A stretch of DNA of 64,000 nucleotides, taken from contig OX485807.1 in assembly GCA_950295325.1 (NCBI GenBank), forward strand, positions 50,000,440-50,064,439. The letters are read 5' to 3'. The notes beneath the pieces are model-generated. The model saw nothing but the letters and a program-made list of their open reading frames with translations, did no database searches and had not been told where the DNA came from. This DNA is from Polytrichum commune (taxonomy: Eukaryota > Streptophyta > Polytrichopsida > Polytrichales > Polytrichaceae). Every line of letters starts with the position of its first letter. Position 1 is the first letter of the stretch. A program made the position numbers and the translations under genes. Below, piece by piece: positions 32,359-64,000 of this stretch.

Positions 32359-35097
32359 ATGGCACTCCTGAGGATGCCCTGCGTCCCTGCGCAATCTGGC
32401 TGGAAGAAATCATCATCGCTGGACAATGGCATCAGCAGCGTAATCTCGTCGTCCTCCTCTGTTTCGTTCTGCAAATTAGGGTCAGGATATGTGGCTCAAT
32501 CCGATTGTGGATGTGTGACGAAGGTTAGGACATCGGGGATTGCGGGGATTGCTTGCCGTGTGAGAACGGCAGGTTCGGAGGATGGTGCGGAGCGAGACAT
32601 AGGAGGCATGGCCGCTTCCGTTTCGCGGAGGGCGGTGCTCTGGGGTTTAGTTGCGGCTCAGGGTTTGGTCATGGAGCGTGAAGTGGCCAGGGCGGGAGTG
32701 CCGAATTACAGAAAGTACGTGGACCGTCTGGACGGTTACACGTTCAGCTACCCGGCAGGGTGGATTGAGGTCCGAGGAGCGGGCGCAGACGTGTTCTTTA
32801 GAGATCCTGTGAATTTGGACGAAAATTTGTTGGTTGAGATTAGCTCGCCTTCTTCGTCCAAGTTCAAGGGGGTGGAGGATCTAGGAACACCGGAGCAGGC
32901 TTCCAAGAAGGTGTTGCAGCAGTATCTGACGGAATTTATGTCCACGAGGATTGGTGTTCGACGTGAAGCGAACGTGACGGCCACCAAGTCCAGAGTTGGC
33001 GACGATGGTCGTCTTTATTACGAAGTAGAGGTGCGTTAACCCCGTGATAAAAACTCCTTGCATTGTATTTTGAAATATAATCGTCAATTGAATTCTTTTT
33101 TCTCTCCAATTTCTCGGTCGATTCTGTAATTTCAGTTGAGGATTTCGGGGTTTTTATGTCAAATGCTTGCCCGAAACACTTACACTGCTCCTCTCAGGGT
33201 GTAATTGAGGTGTCAGGACCATGCGCTATCGAAGCATAAGAGCCAGTCGGCCCTGGCCTCTCACTACCTATAATTTATCCTGGTACTCATTACGCAACAA
33301 TTTCGGTTGAGGATTTTGGTTTATATGGCAAAATTCTTGCCTGAAACACAAGTAATGCTACTCTCAGGGTGTAACTGAGGTTTCAGGACTATGTGCTACA
33401 GAAGCAAACAGCCAGTCTGTCCTGGCTTTCTCACTACTTATCATTTACCCTGGTACTCTTCAAATAGTAATTCCAACTCTCACCTGCTTATAATTTATCC
33501 TGGTACTCCTGCCAATAGATTGCAAAACTAATGCGAACACTCTTCAAACAATTAGTGTAATCCAGACGTCAGAAACGTAGTTTGGATGATTGATCCATGG
33601 AAACTGTTAATTATCAACTAGTAATTTCAATGAGGATTTTGGGTTTGTATGTCAATATCCTTGCTTAAAACACGAACGAGGCAACTCTTAGGGTATAGTT
33701 GAGAGCTTGGTCAATAGTAGTCAGGTGTCAGGACCATGCGCCTTAGAAGCATACAGCCAGTCAGTGTCCGGGGAGGTTTTTGGGCATATTCGGTTGAGAT
33801 CCCAGTGTTTCCATGACTAACCGGTTACACGTTGACAGCTTTCGGTTTTTCTTTATTAAGTTGAGGTATACTCTGTTAATTCTTCTAAAAGATGGGTAAT
33901 ATTCCTGAAGTCTCGAACTTCAACCGGTCATTTCTCAAACTAAACCGGTTCATCTGTAACTAGCGATCGGTTCTCCCTGTTCATTGCAGCCAGTTTGCCC
34001 TTGGTCAACTGTAATCAGGTGTCAGGACCATGTGCTATAGAAGCAAACAGCCAGTCTGCCTGGCTGCTTACTACCTATTGATTGCAAATTGATTTTAATC
34101 ATGCTCTGTTCTAAACACATTTGGTAAGAAATTAGATGTCAGAATGTAGTTTGGAGGTTATTGATTTATCATGATTGATATATGATTCTTTTTTTATCAA
34201 CCCAAGTCGTTCTTTCTCTTCAAAGTCTTGGTTAAATCTGGGAATTGAGTTTGGACTTAATTATAATGGTCTCGGGCAATTATTGTACTATAGATTGCAA
34301 AATGTTCTCAATCACGTTCTGTTCTTCTAATGATTTGTATAATCAAGATGTCAGAGATGTGGTTTTGAGGCTAATTCCATCATTTATGATTAGTCAAACA
34401 CTTTTGAGGCCACTCGCAGTGCTTGAACCACATTTGATTGTAACTGGAGGATGATAAGATTGACATATGATTATATAGGGACCTACTTGGCTATCAATTT
34501 GTACTGGAGGTCATTGTGTTATGTTTCAAAATCCAACTCAAGAGGACCAAGGTTCACCTGGCATGGTGTCGTGATAACATCAAACAAAAGTACTTTCCTG
34601 AAAAGAGAAGCTGGCTCTTCCAAAAAAAAACCTCATTGTACATGAGAACTGATATGGCACTTATGTGATTTCTCAAAAGTTTGAACCCTCGGATTTTTGG
34701 CTGAGAAAGGGGGAATATCTTTCAGAGAAACTGGATGCTCTTGTGTCTATCTGGAGATTTTGCACTATATGGTTGCAAGTTATTGTAGGTTGTCCATGAG
34801 TTAGGGGTTGAGACCTATTATTTGTCAAGTCATGGACAGGATCTGGATACCTTACAGAGTTGCTGGGTTTTGCAGGTTGTTGCAAGTTCATATGCCAATA
34901 ACAATCAATTAGCAGTAATGCCTGAAAGTCGTGTTGCAAAGCTAGAATGGAGTAGAAGGTACCTATCAGTGCTGGGGGTGGAGAACAACAGGCTATACCA
35001 ACTGCGACTGCAGGTTCCTGAAAATGTAGCTGAGCTAGAGGAGAAAGATTTGCGGCAGATTATGAATTCTTTTGGGGTTTTGAAACTTGATGCTTAG
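32359..35097 (+). CDS. PPD4: PsbP-domain protein, thylakoid lumen (PPD4-like)
   Basis: Two exons, 32359-33030 and 34876-35097, joined in phase 0 with GT..AG borders, 297 aa. The N-terminus is Ser-rich (plastid transit type), followed by a twin-arginine lumenal signal SRRAVLWGLVAAQ (Arg90-Arg91) and an ARA cleavage site at about residue 112. The mature part is a PsbP domain: YRKYVDRLDGYTFSYPAGW, GAGADVFFRDPV, then in exon 2 VASSYANNNQLAVMP and RRYLSVLGVENNRLYQLRLQ. PsbP-domain proteins are soluble lumenal factors for photosystem assembly or function. Assignment to the PPD4 subgroup is from remembered resemblance (GAGADVFFRDPVNLDENL) and less certain than the family. The single 1.85 kb intron is full of repeats. 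Confidence 0.88.
33160..34085 (+). repeat. intronic ~120 bp repeat, four units, one split by a MITE
   Basis: Units near 33160-33288, 33337-33459, 33660-33761 and 33987-34085 share CTCAGGGTGTA.TTGAGG, TCAGGACCATG(T/C)GCTA and AAGCA.ACAGCCAGTC, with TACCTATAATTTATCCTGGTACTC in some. The last two surround the family N element and probably represent one interrupted unit plus its neighbour. There is no coding function. Confidence 0.75.
33762..33986 (+). mobile_element. hAT-type MITE family N, copy 3 (intact)
   Basis: 225 bp with ends CAGTGTCCGGGGAG and (inverted) CAATGAACAGGGAG, flanked by a perfect 8 bp target duplication CAGCCAGT (33754-33761 and 33987-33994). The interior has three ACCGGTT-type words. 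It lies in the PsbP-domain gene intron, so it is transcribed with it. Confidence 0.9.
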
Positions 35098-52147: not shown

Positions 52148-55100
52148 TTATCTCTTCCAATCCCAATCTTCAATTGAGGGCTTAATCGGCCTATAGCTCT
52201 GAACTTCTTTAAGACCTTCTTTCATCTTTCGAAGTTTTAATCGCATCATGAGATGCCTTTGTTTTTTCACACCCAGACCTTCTCCTGGCTCCTTGGGTGT
52301 TGCCAAGAGGCTTCCTCTCTTAAGTACTTGCCCAATCCCATCTCCCGTGTACCCTCCATCTCCGTGCTGAGACGTGCTCGTGCACATTTGCGTATCTGCA
52401 GCGGAGAAAATTCGAGTCAGAAATTCTGAAGAGCAACGTCGTCACCTTCTATAGCAGTGCATGGGAACTCCCATGCTAAAGGCGAGAAAAACCAAATTGG
52501 AGGATTCCATGTTACGTTTCCACAAAAGAGAGTGAGTTCGTATTGCCAGCCGTGTAAATAAGTCACACTTGCAGATAGTTAATGCACGCTAGACTTAATG
52601 CATTCTTGAGCTTGGAACTTGTAGAAAATGTTATTCAGAGCACTCAAAGTTGTCAATGTTTAATGTACATTGGGTTTACATTCTTGAACATAGCTTATGT
52701 GAGCTTGAAATTGGTGTATCTAGATTAGGAAAGGTAGTAATTTGCTTAATGACGAACCTGCATTCTCAAATGTGGCCTGTTCCTTCACTGCTGTAACTGT
52801 AGAAAGCAGAGTGCTCACAACGTCATGTGGTTCATCTGGGTTGTCATATTTTTGGCTTCTACTGGTTGCATTTCTTCTGCAAAACAGCAGAGTTCCTTTT
52901 CCTACTGAGAAAACTACGTCATGTAGTAATAACAAAAATGCAACGAATGACGTTCAAAACCCATGAAATCAAATCAATTAGAGTGATCGAAATGCTTCAA
53001 TGAGGTGACTGATGAAAAAAGAGCTAAAAACTCCACACCTCGTTAGTGGGTGAGCAAACTGTGCACAACTTGTGAAGCTGTCACTCCCACTTTTATGATG
53101 GTCATGTTCATGTTCCAGAATTGCCTCAAGCCTTGATCTCTCTCTCTCTCACCACATCACATCTATTCCACAAGACAATCAAATAGAGTCCATACCTTAA
53201 AGTGAAAGTAATAGGTCTCTCACTTGAAGGCACATGGAAATGACAAATTCCAATTGAAGTGATGGAAGCTGATGCATCTTGTCCTCACATTGACAACATA
53301 ATATTTTATTTGAGGATAAAGTTATAGGAGTCTCTAACTTGAACCTGCCAATTTACTCTCAAGCTTGCTAGTCACATCCTAAAACAACTTCAAGACCAGT
53401 GACCAAGTAATCCTGTAAAGAATTTTGATAAGTCGATCATATGTTACAGTTCATGCATAAGTCAGAAGGGCAGACTTACTCTTGGCGAATGCCAGCGAAG
53501 TGCAGATTGTCTGGTTGCTCTTGAGTATCATAAGGAGATGATCCAGTCAATAAATTTGTGATGGACACAAACTTTTGATTCCTCAACAACGCCTCAATGT
53601 ATTTGTAGCCAATGGGATCAATTCCGACTTGTTGCGAACTTCCACGTGCAATAGATGCAGAGTCCCTCAAAAGATCATGTTTGACCACTTCAAGCCTTGT
53701 GCAAATGTCTATAAATCTAGGCCTTGAACGAGGGGTTCCATTCCAACATTCTTCCAAAAGAGACACCAACTTTCCAGGACAATGGGAAGGAAGGTCGGGC
53801 CTTGCACCTCTCACTAATTCTCCATACATGTTGGATAAGTGAACATCCTCAAATGGTGTCTTCAAAGAAAGAATCTCTGCACAAGTCACACCAAAGCTAT
53901 AGACATCGGCTTTGAACCAAAATGCCTTTGCATGCCCTTTATATCCTTGTGTAGGGTTTTGTGCCTTTGGATGTATTCTGGAGCTCTATATCTTGTAGTG
54001 CCAACACCAGGTATAGATATTGTATTTGACTTGGAGACCTCCACTTTGGTCTTTGACAAACCGAAATCAACTAACTTCACAGAGAAATCGTCGTCGAGAT
54101 GTGGAGTGATCAATCTATTTACAACCACGTTTGACGGTTTGAGGTCTCGATGTGCAATCCTGAGGTCGTGCAGATAGCACATTCCCCGGGCGATTTGCAC
54201 GATAATATCAAGTGCCACAGACAGTGGAAATGGTTTTCTTCCCTTTTTTGCTTGATCCCGGATCAAATCAGAAAGGCTCATTTGCATAAGCTCCATCCCA
54301 ATGGAACATTGTCCCTTCGCCGGGTCATTGCTACAACAGAACAATTGGACAATGTTTGGATGGCTGAGACGAGATAAGATTCCCGCTTCTCGCACGAAAA
54401 TAGCCATCTCCACTTCCGTGCGAAACTCCTTCTTAGCGCACGGAATGCCAAGCCATTCTGTGCTACAAACACCACTGGCGCCAGACCCACCTCCAAGAAA
54501 GCCGTCATATTTCCAAGTGTATGGAGGTTCTGTTTCCTTAACCCACAAAATTGCACTGGTATACATGTCCAACTCATTGGCCTGGCCATGTTGAGGTAGG
54601 CAGTCCAATTTTCTCAGCAAGTATTTTGCGAGGCATTGCTCCCAAGAGTTTGAGGAGTCTTCAGTGTTGGCCAAGCGCTGAAGTCTCTTCTGCAAAAGTT
54701 CTCGATCTTCACGGACCTTATCCGGAGTTGCAGGTGAAAATGTTGAAGACTGGCGAAGATCCATAATCTGAAAATTCCATTCTCCACGCATTCCCTTGGC
54801 TTGCTCAAAAATGACATTGTAACATAAACCCATCTCCAACAAAATCTCCTGAAATGCCTTATCATTTTGTAACTGATATATTATTGATGCTTCACACCAA
54901 TTCTCATTCGAACAGTTAGAAACAAGCCGCTTTACTTTCTCTGAGATCGTATATAAGTTGCGTAAAGCCGGTGTAAAGGGGGTGGAAGATTGCCCGCAGT
55001 TTGATACGAGTGCTGTGACATTCTCAATGGTTTCCACAAGTTTAGATAGCAAATCTCGACACTGAGATTCATTGAGCAGGGTGTTGGAGTTTCTTGCGCG

Positions 55101-55187
55101 GTTGACTATCTCTTCCGCACTGTCTTTGCAGAGCCTTAAGAAATCGACAGGCATAACCCAGCCTGTAATGGCACGGAGCGCTTGCAT
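52148..55187 (-). CDS. Ser/Thr kinase with MLKL/MCAfunc-like N-terminus, frameshifted
   Basis: Minus-strand exons 55187-53480, 52876-52758 and 52395-52148 (stop). Residues ~1-200 are helical with the spaced C..L..L / TP.L..L / K.LV.NCS pattern of MLKL_NTD/MCAfunc bundles. The kinase domain has a Gly-rich loop (GGGSGASG, ~232-239), CAKKEF Lys (~252), HRDLKPSN (346-353), DFG (374-376) and APE (402-404), so catalytic residues are intact. Just after APE (about 53974-53977) the frame breaks. The other frame continues HPKAQNPTQGYKGHAKAFWF, KADVYSFGVTCAEIL and on to GIRQE. One missing base explains it and also makes the exon 1 phase (2) agree with exon 2. Introns are GT..AG. The C-terminal exons (RNATSRSQKYDNPDEPH.., ..KPSIEDWDWKR) are inferred from phase and splice sites only; a short alternative last exon at 53412-53379 is possible. 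Either a pseudogenising indel or a sequence error. Confidence 0.75.
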
Positions 55188-57910: not shown

Positions 57911-58843
57911 TTAAATGAGTAGGTTTTGGGGTTTCTTATTCTGCATGGAGCAAATGTGGCTGCAGTTGATAGGTTTGTTTCTATCTGCATTGCCATGGAA
58001 CGTTCTCCTTTGTCTGATGACCTTTTCTGATAATGGTTCCTGTATACAAGCTTCATGATTCATGATCCATGTTTACTTAACGTTAACCCCTCGATTCTCA
58101 GGAGAAATGCGGTATTTTCAGAGTGGGACTAGTGTATTAAAACCCAACGGTACAGCTGATTAATCAAGGAGAATTGGAAGAGAATATACATTGTCTTAGC
58201 ATCACTGCATGCTATTAATCGATTGGCCTTTTGGAAAAGTGCATGACATATCATATGCTTGCTCGCAACAGTCTGCAGTGTTTTCCAGCGATTGCATTCG
58301 AGATGTGCATTTTCAACCTTGTTTTAAAAGAAAGGAAGTCTCAGAGGAGTATTTGAAAGAAAGGTTGTCCTTACCTTTATCTGAATTGTCATCTCAATTG
58401 CATCACCATGACACTGCTGTTTGGATTCCCATTTTCGTTGGTGCTCAACTATGTCTAGTAGATCTTCCACAAATGAACCACAGGTTGTGCAGAGAGTGTC
58501 TTTGCATTGTACCACTCCATCAGCGGAGGACTTTGAAATGTGGATATGTCGAGCCACATGATGCATATGAAAATTCTCAAATCTGCGGAAATTCTGTAAA
58601 ACAAATAAGCATGGAATTTCTTCAAATGCTAGACCACTGGAAATGGTGTGGTTAACTCAAGAGTCAGAACAGATTTTCGACATTCTGATAGTGACTAACA
58701 CATCTCACTCTGGGTGGGACACACAAATGCGCATTCAAAGAGGATCGATCCGTGACAAGGACAGAGTCTTCGATCTTGTTTGTTTCTTCCTCTTTTGTGC
58801 AGCTGATCATGTCCTGGAATTCACCAAGGTGATTTGAAATCAC
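57911..58843 (-). pseudogene. unrecognised gene, 5'-truncated (three candidate exons)
   Basis: Minus-strand exons at 58843(open)-58709, 58593-58375 and 58039-57911 have good GT..AG borders and all join in phase 0. Exon 1 reads LGEFQDMISCTKEEETNKIE and ends HLCVPPR|GTGAGA. Exon 2 is 73 codons (NFRRFENFHMHHVARHIHIS, later CKDTLCTTCGSFVEDLLDIV). Exon 3 is 42 codons to a stop. The 5' side is cut off by a G-family MITE end at 58844, so the gene is probably broken. The intron between exons 2 and 3 contains the segment also found at 49.7-50.1 kb. I do not recognise the family. Confidence 0.45.
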
Positions 58844-58845
58844 CT
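58827..58845. repeat. 19 bp perfect palindrome at a MITE junction
   Basis: AGGTGATTT-G-AAATCACCT, overlapping the first two bases of the G-family element. It may be a coincidence of the target site, or a product of hairpin repair at a hAT excision or insertion site. Confidence 0.8.
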
Positions 58846-59005
58846 CGGGGGGGGCAGTGTGTTAGAAATTTAAGGATATAGGTGCGAACAACCACCATTT
58901 TATAGGGGGGTATTACTTTTTCTTTTTCTTTTTTTCCACGGGCTATCATTATATAATTTTCTAATTTGGCTTATTATTACAGGGGCTTGCATTACTTATA
59001 ATTCC
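58844..59005 (-). mobile_element. hAT-type MITE family G, truncated inverted copy
   Basis: It starts CTCGGGGGGGGCAGTGTGTTA and follows the reverse complement of the G family (TATAGGTGCGAACAACCAC, TTTTATAGGGGGGTATTACT, GCTTGCATTACTTATAATTC) for about 160 bp, then diverges. The other end and target duplication are not found. Confidence 0.85.
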
Positions 59006-59210
59006 AAATTGATATGAATAAACGATATGGTAATTTAGATTTAAAAAAACATTCTACTACAATTTTTGTCCTACATCAAATTATGAACACATACATGAAA
59101 TCAAACAATGTAGGTTAAAGTGTAAATGATATAAAAGAGCAATTTGTATAGATCACATAAAAACTATACAAACCTTTAGTATGAAATCATTCATATTATG
59201 AAACACAATA
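59006..59210. other. AT-rich flank, no gene seen
   Basis: No coding frame. Confidence 0.5.
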
Positions 59211-59430
59211 GAGTTATCCTAAAAGTCAAGTGGCCTTTGAACAAATAAGAGCCATTAAATCAAAACACATGGCATCTTGTTCAAATGCCACTTGACTTTT
59301 AAAATAACTCCAATGAGGGACCACCAAGCTCTTTCAAACTTCATAACTATTTACAATGAACAAATAAGAGTACATTAAATCAAAACACATGATATCTTGT
59401 TCAAACGCCATTTGACTTTTAGGATAACTC
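59211..59430. repeat. fold-back repeat with extra half-copy
   Basis: 59211-59244 (GAGTTATCCTAAAAGTCAAG..) and 59277-59310 are inverted copies of ~34 bp with a few mismatches and a 32 bp loop. The loop plus the second arm recur directly at 59356-59430 (GAACAAATAAGAG..ATTAAATCAAAACACATG..TTGTTCAAACGCC). It lies just downstream of the giant ORF stop. It may be a MITE or the subterminal structure of a larger element. Confidence 0.75.
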
Positions 59431-59580
59431 CAATTTACAAAGTATTTGTGCACAATCATAGTAGTATGAAATAAATGTTCTCATTGTGTTTACAAACACA
59501 ATGAATGAAACTAAATGTGCATATCATGGAGACACTGACAAATAAAGATAAAACCGTAGCTACTTGAATAACCTGCAATG

Positions 59581-62500
59581 CTAAGTAGTTTTTGACACAA
59601 ATTCATCTAGCACCTGCCGATCAGTTTCTTTTAGGGTGTAAACGTTGCTATTAGATTTGAATGACAATGCAATGATGCAAATCACGCTTTCAATGTCAAT
59701 CCATTGGGTGTCAGTCACATCGTACTTGTATTTGTTCCTCCCCGGTGCTGATTTGAACCAATTCAACATTATTTGAATGGACGGTGAAGAACTTCCCTTC
59801 TTACCTACTAAGGTGTGAGCCATAAGGTTGACAGGGTTTCTACACAATCTCCACGTTTTTCCAACCGTCCTTCGCATTTTTTGGACTCGGCCCAGCCACC
59901 AAGTGCCAATGTTCGGGCCAACGGTCACAGCAGTCGGGTGTCCCACATGAGCACTGGTGCGGTTCCTCTTCTGTGCTGCTCTCACTCCAGAACTTTGGCC
60001 CAGAGTTCGTGATTGCATGAACATCACAGCGCAGTCACTTCCAAGTCCAAGGAAAGCGGTTGATGTTGAATTTGCAGTTGAAAGGTAATCCTCTGCGTTA
60101 TTGAAATAAATAGAGTTCTTGATGCGAGTCAAGCGGTCCTTTGATAAGAAAGGATTCCCATTCAATTCACCTACTAACGTTGATTTGTAAATGGCCCTGC
60201 CCTTGTACTCCACCACCGGCTCTATTTTCTGTACAAGGTTCTGCCCAGTTGGAGGCATTGGTGGGCTCGGCTCAGCTGAATCTAGCATTTGCGAGATTGC
60301 ATCCCTGCATTCCTCCTCAGCAAGTCTTAAAATTTCTTCCCTATCATCCAAAGAATCGTCCACAATACTCATATCCACGTCAATGTCCACAACACTCTTA
60401 TCCGGGTCTACATTGGCGCCGTCACCATCCACGGTCTCTTCTTCCATTGGCAAAATTTTGGAGTCCCTCATGGCCTCACCATCGCCATCTTCGCCGGGGA
60501 CAGGTTTTTCGGGAGCCACATATGCCCAGTGCTTTGGATCCGCCCTCTCGACCGTCCAAGGCTGCAAGAACCACTGTTTATTTCTAGCATAAGAGGATGG
60601 AGCCATATTTAGCACCTTCAATTGGGTTTGGGCTGCCTTTAGACCTTCCTTCAACGCTGATACGAAGTCCTCATCTGTGGCAAGGGCGCTGTAATCTCCC
60701 AAATCTGCAGGGGACTGTCCCTGTTCTAAAGGATGCAAGTCAGCCCAGATGTTACGCTGCTTGTTATGCGCTCTACCAAATTGCAATCCATTGGGTCCAT
60801 ATTCAATCGCAGCAAGCTGGTTCACTGTGTTAGCACAACCCACAAGCTCTTGGAAATCGTAAGCTCTCTCCATACCCTGCATCCCTCCCACCTTGCTAAA
60901 AAAAATTTCACACGAATCAGATCCTGTGAGGTGCAGTGGAACTGGCAAGTGAGAGAATCCATCACGAAAATACCTTATCAGTAAGACCACAAAATGGCAA
61001 GACAACTGCACATCAAGATAGCATTGGTTGCTCACAAAGCATTCTTGTAGCGTGGGCTTCTTTGTATTTCCTCCTACACCGTGGTCACCATGGTCGAACC
61101 ACAACCTCCATATTCTAAAAAAGAATGACACTTTGCTAGCAAGAACCACCCTCTCCCTCAAAGTCAAAGACACGGAAAGGAAAATGTCGATATAATCAGC
61201 ACATATAGACAAGTACAGCTCAGTCCCCAAAGTTCTTTCTTGATGTGCGTCCTTACAAGTTCTAAGTTCCTGCAAGCAAGTCCTTGCCTTCTTTGCACAA
61301 ATGCGTTGTGCACTAGCCCAATTTTGTCTGTCTGTTCGGTCCACATCTTCTTTTCTAAGACCATGCTGATCAATACCAAACTTTTGATAAACTTGACCAA
61401 GATGATCTAGGTAACAGACATCAGCCCCTAGTTGAAGGTTCTTTACAGCACTGTCAAGTGGGTTGATCAATTTTTTTCCGTTATGGATGAAATCCTGATC
61501 ATGCAAGCCTTTAATTTTATTCTCCCCAAGCCACTCACAAGATAAAGACCAGCCTTCCCATGGAATTTCATACCTGAATCCTACCTTGCTGCAGTAGTCT
61601 TCAACCATCAATTGCCTTCTCCTAGAGTCGCCATCTGAAGAATGCCCTATAATAGGTCCAACAACTGGCCCACAACTATATTGCCAAAGGGTGTCAATAC
61701 TCTCCCACTGACTTCTCACCCAACTCGAATTAAATCGATTGCAAGTGCATGATACAACAAGGACAAGTCTGGGCAACTTATCATGCAACGGATTGACCAT
61801 GATGACACGAGCAAAACTTCCTTTGACATTCATTCGAAAAGAATCAACTATGGATGAATATCCACTCTCACCATTCCCTACTTGCGGTTTGAAAGTAGAG
61901 ATGCACACATGATTCTCCTTTTCTCCACAAAAGCCTACCAATCCATCTGACCGAGCGTCCCAAGAAATACGGGACTTAACTTTCGTCTCGTCTTCAGCTA
62001 AGATGACTGGGACTGGTCCTACCACTCCGTGACTTGCTTTGGCCTCCTTGTAAATGTCAGCCACAGCAGCAAACAACGAAGAATGTTCCCCGGCAATGAA
62101 CTGAACTCCTTTTTTGTTTTCCCTCTTGGTACAATCATATGACGGTCCACCAAAATTCAAAGCAAACAAATCACACATTCGCCTCCCACCATAGATCCTC
62201 ATAGCTTGTGCAAATGATTTTGAATTTTTTGAGAATGTATGACCCTGCCTCACACGATTCAAGTTTGTGGCAACATCCCTAAGGAAGTCCCACAAAGTTG
62301 GCTTTCCGCCAAAGGCGTTGGTTCTGTGAGCCGCCAAAATGTTGTTACAAAAAGAGAGAACATCCTTTCTATTAAAGCTTTCTACGGCACTAAGTTTCAG
62401 ACCGCGGTGACTTACTTTCAATTGCGCGACCCTAGCCTTCATGAGCCAATGCTTAGCCTTTTCCTCACGATATTTCCTCGCTAATGTCCTAGACTGTGCG

Positions 62501-64000
62501 GCCACCTCAATACATTGCAAGTAGTCTATCCTTCTTCCAGACTGTGTATCCCTGCAACCGCGCTTAACAAGAGCACGACCTTCCCTAAGCACTCTAAGTC
62601 TGAAATCAGTGGCCTGCTCAATTTCTATGCAACAAGAACAAGTGAAATCCGTGAAAGGTTCTCCTGTGCCATTCAAACGTTTACATTGTACATGACGGAA
62701 GCAACCTTTCACAACGACAATCTTGCCTTTGAATACAAAATTTGCAGTTGTGTTGGGCTCCGCTATCCACAACGATCCAGGCTTTGAATCATTGAGCAAT
62801 GAATCCATTCTATAGCACTTCCCAACGTACTCAATGATTTTCTTCCTAAATCCCCAACACAACAATGACAAGATAGAGTCTGAGTGCATACCTGATGGAG
62901 ATTCGCTTGTAGTTACGGAATCTGTACTGCCCGAACTGCTGAACCAAGAATGCAGGTCCCGTTGATTTCCAATTGTTGTTCTCGACCTTGCACTAGGTCT
63001 CCCTCGCTTCCCGGAGCTCAATGCACATGATGTCTTTGAAGAACTGTTTGCCCTTACCAAATCTTCACAACACTTGGTATGAAGGAGCCCATGGACATGA
63101 TTCTCTAAATTAGCTCTGAGATTTCCCTTTTGCGGGCACAAGTGCATTAGTTCTCCGTCGATTTTGCAACGCACCTTGAACCAAAAGGACTTGAACTGAG
63201 GAACCCCCACATCTCCCACTATTACAAATGGAGGATCATCTTCCGAGATGGAATCATTCACACTTTGAAGAATGCTGACACCTTCCTCCACGAGACGCTT
63301 GTGATCGGCTGGTGTCAAAATTATGGGTTTGCTAGAGTTGCCCTCCTTCTTCGGGTGATCGTTGTACAAGATATTCCTCTTCCTACACCACTGCTTGATG
63401 TGAAGAGTGGAATGCAAGTGAGACTTTTTGAAATTCGCAAACAAGTTTTGTATGGCAATCCGGGAGTGATCACGACCTGTACCCCCGATTTCTCTCTTGC
63501 ACTCCCCACAAAATATTTTCACAACTGCCACGTCATGGTGATCGTATGTTTTGAGGTTCCACACGTGATCAGCGAAATCCATGGACTCCAACTCCCTTCT
63601 AAGCTTCTCAGCACCCCGCTTGTAATTCTCAAGCACGTCAACAGATAAGAGTGTCGATTGCAGCAAAGTCTCTTCCTCTTCATGAACTTCAATCAGATCT
63701 GCCTCTTCCAACGTCGGGGCAACACCGCAGAGCAAGATGTCCGCAACACACGGTTGGACAACTTCATCAACTCTAATTTCTACTTGGGGCTCCCCTGCAA
63801 AGTCATTGCTCCCCGCTTCACCCGGCGCTTGAAGACGACACCGCTTCTGAAGTCCACCTTCGTCCTCCAATAAAGGAATGACATAGACACGGTCTGTCAC
63901 AGGATTCATGGCCTCAAACCTCTTGAGGATTCGACATTCATCTTGGAAGTCCCAAAAAAGGAAAGGCCACTCCACGCATCCACCATTCTCCAAGCGCGTG
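59581..64000 (-). CDS. giant intronless ORF, P-element/THAP9-like transposase-derived (inference); 5' end beyond window
   Basis: Open on the minus strand from the window edge to a stop at 59581. Counting the TTG at 63993 as residue 1 gives 1,470 codons; no ATG start is visible, so the gene begins outside. Residues ~160-200 (C162-x2-C165..H194-x3-H198) and ~276-305 (C276, C286, H299, H305) resemble two zinc fingers, and 431-455 is a Cys-rich knot ending CSCC. Then come PVILAEDETKVKSRISWDAR (D668), PIIGHSSDGDSRRRQLM (D787), HDQDFIHNGKKL (832-841) and LTGSDSCEIFFSKVGGMQGM (E1029). The order, the 241-residue D2-to-E gap and the D..H..K motif parallel the RNase H fold plus GTP-binding insertion of P-element/THAP9 transposases. 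A Pro/acidic linker (~1165-1250) and a conserved-looking C-terminal module (IYKSTLVGELNGNPFLSKDR; TWWLGRVQKMRRTVGK) follow. No THAP domain is seen. It is intact, in contrast to the decayed elements around it. Confidence 0.7.
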   Translation of the reverse strand, partial: TRLENGGCVEWPFLFWDFQDECRILKRFEAMNPVTDRVYVIPLLEDEGGLQKRCRLQAPGEAGSNDFAGEPQVEIRVDEVVQPCVADILLCGVAPTLEEADLIEVHEEEETLLQSTLLSVDVLENYKRGAEKLRRELESMDFADHVWNLKTYDHHDVAVVKIFCGECKREIGGTGRDHSRIAIQNLFANFKKSHLHSTLHIKQWCRKRNILYNDHPKKEGNSSKPIILTPADHKRLVEEGVSILQSVNDSISEDDPPFVIVGDVGVPQFKSFWFKVRCKIDGELMHLCPQKGNLRANLENHVHGLLHTKCCEDLVRANSSSKTSCALSSGKRGRPSARSRTTIGNQRDLHSWFSSSGSTDSVTTSESPSGMHSDSILSLLCWGFRKKIIEYVGKCYRMDSLLNDSKPGSLWIAEPNTTANFVFKGKIVVVKGCFRHVQCKRLNGTGEPFTDFTCSCCIEIEQATDFRLRVLREGRALVKRGCRDTQSGRRIDYLQCIEVAAQSRTLARKYREEKAKHWLMKARVAQLKVSHRGLKLSAVESFNRKDVLSFCNNILAAHRTNAFGGKPTLWDFLRDVATNLNRVRQGHTFSKNSKSFAQAMRIYGGRRMCDLFALNFGGPSYDCTKRENKKGVQFIAGEHSSLFAAVADIYKEAKASHGVVGPVPVILAEDETKVKSRISWDARSDGLVGFCGEKENHVCISTFKPQVGNGESGYSSIVDSFRMNVKGSFARVIMVNPLHDKLPRLVLVVSCTCNRFNSSWVRSQWESIDTLWQYSCGPVVGPIIGHSSDGDSRRRQLMVEDYCSKVGFRYEIPWEGWSLSCEWLGENKIKGLHDQDFIHNGKKLINPLDSAVKNLQLGADVCYLDHLGQVYQKFGIDQHGLRKEDVDRTDRQNWASAQRICAKKARTCLQELRTCKDAHQERTLGTELYLSICADYIDIFLSVSLTLRERVVLASKVSFFFRIWRLWFDHGDHGVGGNTKKPTLQECFVSNQCYLDVQLSCHFVVLLIRYFRDGFSHLPVPLHLTGSDSCEIFFSKVGGMQGMERAYDFQELVGCANTVNQLAAIEYGPNGLQFGRAHNKQRNIWADLHPLEQGQSPADLGDYSALATDEDFVSALKEGLKAAQTQLKVLNMAPSSYARNKQWFLQPWTVERADPKHWAYVAPEKPVPGEDGDGEAMRDSKILPMEEETVDGDGANVDPDKSVVDIDVDMSIVDDSLDDREEILRLAEEECRDAISQMLDSAEPSPPMPPTGQNLVQKIEPVVEYKGRAIYKSTLVGELNGNPFLSKDRLTRIKNSIYFNNAEDYLSTANSTSTAFLGLGSDCAVMFMQSRTLGQSSGVRAAQKRNRTSAHVGHPTAVTVGPNIGTWWLGRVQKMRRTVGKTWRLCRNPVNLMAHTLVGKKGSSSPSIQIMLNWFKSAPGRNKYKYDVTDTQWIDIESVICIIALSFKSNSNVYTLKETDRQVLDEFVSKTT

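Follow-up and report, generated by a model that had tools for sequence, protein, structure and literature searches.

Whether a very long uninterrupted reading frame in a moss genome belongs to the host or to a mobile element, and by what mechanism its product might act, is the question raised by the 64,000 nucleotides of Polytrichum commune which were analysed here and are called the window (contig OX485807.1, C5:50000440-50064439, in an assembly of 408 Mb with ~406 Mb in seven large contigs). The frame lies on the minus strand (63999..59581) and contains no internal stop and no intron, 1,472 codons being readable before it is cut by the window edge. This is in line with the initial annotation of the window, which had listed an uninterrupted gene of ~1,470 codons and left the strand unstated. 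In the genome the frame extends over 1,518 codons, and the first ATG at codon 10 yields a protein of 1,509 amino acids. Residue numbers given here refer to this protein and exceed those of the 1,472-residue window frame by 37. What this frame encodes is the transposase of a multicopy cut-and-paste DNA transposon, and the element, judged by its sequence, looks autonomous and recently mobile.

This assignment is carried by the copies of the element and by their ends. A protein search of the assembly with the window protein as query gave 33 matching stretches, nine of these rows being stop-free over 1,490 codons or more. Besides the window copy one stretch showed 100% identity and three copies showed 99% (one of them split in two rows), which makes four further copies at ~99% or more; the remainder ranged from 37-91%, and dozens of diverged stretches are found in the assembly. 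With distant members as queries 82 and 72 matching stretches were obtained. The whole element of the window copy, designated A1, measures 8,426 bp (C5:50059283-50067708), its ends having been placed by alignment of the copies, by the terminal inverted repeats CTCGGGGG...CCCCGAG and by the target site duplication. Duplications of 8 bp flank all ten elements in which both ends could be placed, nine of them exact and one matching at 7/8 positions. An eleventh element, A4, was excluded from this count because its 5' part is displaced, ~6.8 kb away. Inverted repeats, target duplications and several near-identical copies with an intact frame, the features by which a DNA transposon with terminal inverted repeats is recognised, are all present, and the genome search for copies, inverted repeats and 8-bp duplications which had been proposed with the initial annotation found every one of them. 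In A4 itself (G000 C6:18744108-18751172, around locus L012) the gene is split by ~6.76 kb, and the two query halves (1-154 and 146-300) share 9 bp, which would fit the insertion of a further transposon that makes a 9-bp duplication.

Further regularities were seen at the ends. The terminal word of families B and C, CTCGGGGGGGTCA, has 50 matches in the genome as compared to 4 for the reversed control. The word GGTGMGAACAA begins at nucleotide 38 in four of the six ends of families A-C and occurs nowhere else in these elements, while in the remaining two ends it is seen at nucleotides 41 and 38, altered at one or two positions; family D is without it. It is a candidate site for the transposase. 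Slippage is the probable cause of a difference in terminal homopolymer length among the L009, L010, L011 and L013 copies, in which the G run of the 5' end counts 8-11 and the C run of the 3' end 8-17 nucleotides.

The age of the copies may be read from the pairs within family A. A1 and A2 show six differences in 8,422 aligned positions, and all other pairs have 16 to 33 mismatches, counts involving A4 spanning only 5.0 kb. P elements make local hops. A2 (L009, L010) lies ~21.7 kb from A1 in the same orientation with a different target duplication, and the likeness of the two is suggestive of such a hop, though one pair cannot show it. Five synonymous and 15 non-synonymous differences separate A1 from A3, which points to little constraint among the young copies. 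Between families, five pairs gave a proportion of non-synonymous differences (pN) of 0.16-0.32 and a saturated proportion of synonymous differences (pS) of 0.81-0.84. No ratio can be given; the low pN beside this saturation indicates that constraint has acted on the proteins. The enzyme is not necessarily active where the frame is intact, since the near-identical copy L003 (A3; C4:41298894-41303309) has a fully open frame and a tyrosine in place of aspartate 1065 (GSYSCE).

The mechanism by which the protein may act is suggested by a set of conserved residues. Fifteen core sequences were compared as representatives, the near-identical L002-L004, L007, L017 and L033 being left out, as were L023 and L025, which are partial. 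The four motifs which had been picked out initially are present (D670, D789, D836xxH839 and E1031 in the 1,472-codon frame, corresponding to 707, 826, 873/876 and 1068 of the protein), and the P-type signature read from them proved to be conserved across the diverged families in 15/15 representatives. The residues are arranged as D707-119-D826-47-D873xxH-102-D975-90-D1065-3-E1068. Lysine at +6 and asparagine at +10 of D873 as well as two phenylalanines following E1068 are shared with P and do not vary in the same 15 sequences, and the LAxDExKV around D707 agrees with P too, glutamate 708 being kept in 13/15 and lysine 710 in 12/15. The farthest family reads DPLHVGKKLRN, which is nearer to the DTPHLIKLVRN of P. 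When the 611 aligned columns (89 of them invariant) were permuted, the basic D/D/[DC]xxH/E arrangement appeared in 43 of 50,000 permutations and the arrangement with the extra lysine and asparagine in 0 of 50,000; these figures are optimistic because the distance ranges were set after the family had been seen, that for D1-D2 being widened to take in 119, and because shuffling destroys natural clustering.

In the P element the corresponding string is D230-73-D303-36-D339xxH-105-D444-84-D528-3-E531, and in THAP9 it is D304-70-D374-40-D414-105-D519-94-E613 (PMC8230255). The P string was taken from that paper and its letters were checked on the sequence. Since Table 1 of the same paper sets D304 of THAP9 beside D252 and not D230 of P, the first aspartate of THAP9 is less sure. 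The signature of D, D, [C/D](2)H and E is present in the moss protein, with 47 residues from the second aspartate to the [C/D](2)H motif as compared to 36 in P and 40 in THAP9. From this motif to the glutamate the distance is 195, as compared to 192 in P, 199 in THAP9 and 307 in Hermes, a member of hAT, and the aspartate which binds guanosine triphosphate (GTP) in P has its proposed counterpart at 102, as compared to 105 in both P and THAP9. The gap from the second aspartate to the glutamate is of P/THAP9-like length as first described, the value of 241 given at that time being corrected to a measured 242. The length of the insertion and the positions of D975 and D1065 would fit the GTP-binding insertion domain of P, which lies between beta5 and alpha4. 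D444 of P is a GTP-binding residue that transposition requires (PMC8230255).

Common to the moss element and the Drosophila P transposase (PDB 6P5A, 6PE2) are the 8-bp duplication, the order D, D, DxxHxxKxxxN, DxxExFF and the LAxDExKV. In contrast to P, the moss protein has, in place of THAP, zinc-finger-like sets and a stretch resembling an AT-hook, and it has a long acidic and C-terminal tail within its ~1,509 amino acids; the moss ends start with CTCGGGGG, and overall homology was undetected. THAP9 is a single-copy animal gene, whereas the moss transposase belongs to a multicopy plant element. The signature residues D304/D374/D414/E613 are what human THAP9 and zebrafish Pdre2 have in common with it, at a spacing of 70/40/199 as compared to 119/47/195 here (PMC8230255). 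By published descriptions the element may also be likened to Galileo of the Drosophila P superfamily, a P relative with unusual termini of its own, which differs in having a THAP domain and whose classification was made from the transposase sequence.

It is probable that the element is an autonomous cut-and-paste transposon encoding a DDE (aspartate, aspartate, glutamate) transposase which works like the P-element and THAP9 enzymes. The zinc-finger-like and AT-hook-like region at the N-terminus would bind the ends of the element, perhaps at the GGTGMGAACAA ~38 nucleotides inside each end. A core of RNase H type, built around D707, D826 and E1068 and interrupted by an insertion that follows DxxH and precedes the glutamate, would cut and join the DNA with an 8-bp stagger, and a purine nucleotide might be used as in P. 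While motif features make a P-like mechanism likely and lend support to a P-like lineage, membership of the P superfamily is unproven because the comparison of profiles with P gave an outcome that was either negative or unstable. From the P-superfamily transposase originally proposed, the transposase of a transposon has been retained, and the superfamily membership is not established.

A number of results weigh against a P-like enzyme. Pfam scans of the window protein (E<=1) and of 11 members and L032, which represents the farthest family (E<=10), yielded no transposase and at most weak unrelated matches, these coming from four families in the scan of the 11 members. TNP-like_RNaseH_N and TNP-like_GBD had 0 matches in the genome, no control genome being matched either, and the three short genome matches of TNP-like_RNaseH_C, one of them just above the cut-off, are not located at these loci. 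A profile search of PDB gave no P match, and sequence searches of PDB gave just weak unrelated matches. Comparison with P by hhalign was insignificant (local p 0.11, 0.079 and 0.16, the alignment with 0.079 lying outside the core; global p 0.66). One hhalign alignment set D975 opposite D444 and E1068 opposite E531; its score was equalled or beaten by 28/150 shuffles and by 24/150 locally shuffled sequences. In a gapped profile alignment the P score was reached by 44/200 shuffles. A block-chain test, with blocks defined by family conservation alone, gave 16/1,000 shuffles at or above P in a first run and 270, 949, 36, 472 and 12 of 2,000 at five thresholds, counts which differ so widely that the test must be called unstable. 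All five settings put the D707 block on D230, two put the D826 block on D303 and three put the E1068 block on E531; none put the DxxH block on D339. Two single-sequence AlphaFold models of stretches of the window had a mean predicted local distance difference test score of 36.3 and 35.3 and were unusable. Further, the first two aspartates are 119 residues apart as compared to 73 in P and 70 in THAP9, for which an insert of ~46 residues between them would account, and D975 is a glutamate in L032. By eye, a clear counterpart was seen for just two of the eight residues that contact GTP in P, namely D528 and D444 (the others being K385, K400, V401, S409, F443 and N447; PMC7776569), which lowers the confidence in the P-like reading and raises that in a separate superfamily. 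The THAP domain is absent, no Pfam THAP match being found in 11/11 members scanned nor in L032, and sets of cysteines and histidines sit where it would be, as had been anticipated by the initial annotation with zinc-finger-like motifs in place of THAP.

The alternative which survives best, though we regard it as unlikely, is a separate undescribed DDE superfamily which has converged on the D/D/[CD]xxH/E layout or shares it very distantly with P. It would agree with the fact that no transposase of Pfam or PDB was detected as a homologue, with the insignificant hhalign results, with a spacing of the first two aspartates unlike that in P and with the GTP contacts, most of which are without a clear counterpart by eye. 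The [C/D](2)H motif is common to several superfamilies and by itself is not specific. What argues against this alternative is that more P-type positions than these match in order and spacing, namely lysine at +3 and asparagine at +7 after the histidine, the aspartate at 102-105 and DxxExFF, all of them invariant or nearly so, and that the LAxDExKV around the first aspartate matches as well.

A divergent hAT element is highly improbable. Elements of this superfamily have the 8-bp duplication, a CxxH motif and a DDE core with an insertion domain as well, they are common in this genome (at least 150 scored matches; 1,060 candidates at first look), and Hermes outscored P in one of the five block-chain settings (35/1,000 as compared to 270/2,000 shuffles). 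In the other four settings, however, Hermes showed nothing (the five counts being 35, 291, 369, 391 and 855 of 1,000 shuffles), its hhalign score of 16.8 is about the mean of shuffled P, its spacing of 68/17/307, the letters of which were confirmed, differs from the 119/47/195 found here, none of the listed hAT matches lies at these loci by eye, and the hAT dimerisation domain PF05699 remained unmatched in the member scans. A hAT assignment is hence unsupported by Pfam models and motif spacing. The KDZ (Kyakuja-Dileera-Zisupton) superfamily is likewise unsupported by Pfam models, PF18758 giving 0 genome matches, with no control genome matched, and no match in the member scans. That a domesticated transposase gene with a host function is present, for which the long intact frame and the protein-level constraint between families might speak, is scarcely credible and for this copy ruled out, since near-identical copies are spread over separate sites and every one of them has inverted repeats and an 8-bp duplication of its own; from the initial suggestion of recent activity or domestication, recent movement therefore stands and domestication of a single gene falls.

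Outside the core the protein has several recognisable stretches, which are collected in Table 1 together with the other features. The N-terminal third holds the two zinc-finger-like sets, the H-C-C-C set and GKRGRPS, a motif which we take to be AT-hook-like. A stretch KMRLISELN...LDRLRR resembling that of the C-terminal module occurs in the distant family of L032. Upstream of the gene family A has a region of ~3.1 kb with no frame above 111 codons; this leader is ~2.3 kb longer than that of family C and is perhaps due to a nested insertion or to 5' introns. In family D a second, cysteine-rich frame of 414 codons (L032 positions 3-854 and the end of L037) lies upstream of the transposase frame and may be an N-terminal exon or code for a separate protein.

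Table 1. Features of the transposon and its transposase in the window, and target duplications of the element families.
Feature	Window position	Strand	Remarks
Transposase gene, residues 38-1509 of 1509 and stop	59581..63999	-	37 N-terminal codons beyond the window; open reading frame and genome frame
DNA transposon, putatively P-like, 3' part	58844..64000	-	5' part beyond the window; ends from copies, inverted repeat and target duplication
8-bp target site duplication GTGATTTC (element strand), 3'-end copy	58836..58843	.	partner copy outside the window
3' terminal inverted repeat, ...ACTGCCCCCCCCGAG	58844..58858	-	15 nt; 5' end has three extra G in the run
D707, proposed first catalytic aspartate (LAEDETKV)	61990..61992	-	invariant 15/15
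D826, proposed second catalytic aspartate (SSDGDSRRR)	61633..61635	-	invariant 15/15
D873xxH876xxK879xxxN883, [C/D](2)H motif of the P signature	61462..61494	-	invariant 15/15
D975 (YIDIF), proposed counterpart of GTP-contacting D444 of P	61186..61188	-	D in 14/15, E in the farthest family
D1065-x2-E1068, proposed counterparts of D528 and catalytic E531 of P	60907..60918	-	invariant 15/15
Zinc-finger-like set 1, C201-x2-C204 ... H231-x5-H237	63400..63510	-	each 8/8 covering A1 rows; named by eye
Zinc-finger-like set 2, C315-x9-C325-x12-H338-x5-H344	63079..63168	-	C315 8/8, C325 8/9, H338 and H344 9/9; named by eye
GKRGRPS, presumably AT-hook-like, residues 367-373	62992..63012	-	sequence and family alignment
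Zinc-knuckle-like H473-x2-C476 ... C491-x2-C494	62629..62694	-	kept in all covering A1 rows, 10 or 11; named by eye
C-terminal module after acidic linker (linker ~60121-60438)	59584..60123	-	similar stretch in the most distant family
Family A, element of 8,426 bp in the window copy			target duplications A1 GTGATTTC, A2 GTTTAAGG, A3 GCAATGGT, A5 AGCGGGGT
Family B, shorter copy 5,802 bp			target duplications TCTAGATT, and GGCAGAGA vs GGCAAAGA
Family C, 6,351 bp			target duplications AAAGAAAC and CTCTTCTA
Distant family D, 6,034 bp			target duplications CTCAGCTC and GTAACGAG

Two plain plant genes were also seen in the window, a gene with a PsbP domain at 32359-33039 on the plus strand, which fits a photosynthetic host, and a protein kinase frame at 53886-55187 on the minus strand.

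In the accessible part of a 2022 review on transposons of land plants six superfamilies with terminal inverted repeats are listed (Tc1-Mariner, hAT, Sola, MuDR-Foldback, PIF-Harbinger and CACTA) and P is not among them (PMC9033089), and the accessible text of a Physcomitrium paper (PMC7466625) does not mention 'P element'. No P-like plant or moss element was met in the literature searched, as far as its texts were accessible; Repbase and most subscription papers were outside its scope, so that absence from print is not shown. Viral contigs and prokaryote genomes, from which records near the source genome were possibly excluded, gave pattern matches, none of which was confirmed by tblastn. As the gene went unrecognised by any Pfam scan run, genes of this kind are likely missed by annotation based on known families. 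It is possible, though doubtful, that the elements form a superfamily of land plants which is sister to P/THAP9, with a DNA-binding front end and a C-terminal module of its own, with several families per genome and with copies young enough for activity, and in which P-type transposition proceeds without THAP and with a perhaps altered nucleotide site. A P-like lineage with recent mobility would bring one more superfamily to plants, would point to a P core able to function in the absence of THAP, and would provide an outgroup for the origin of the GTP-dependent insertion domain.

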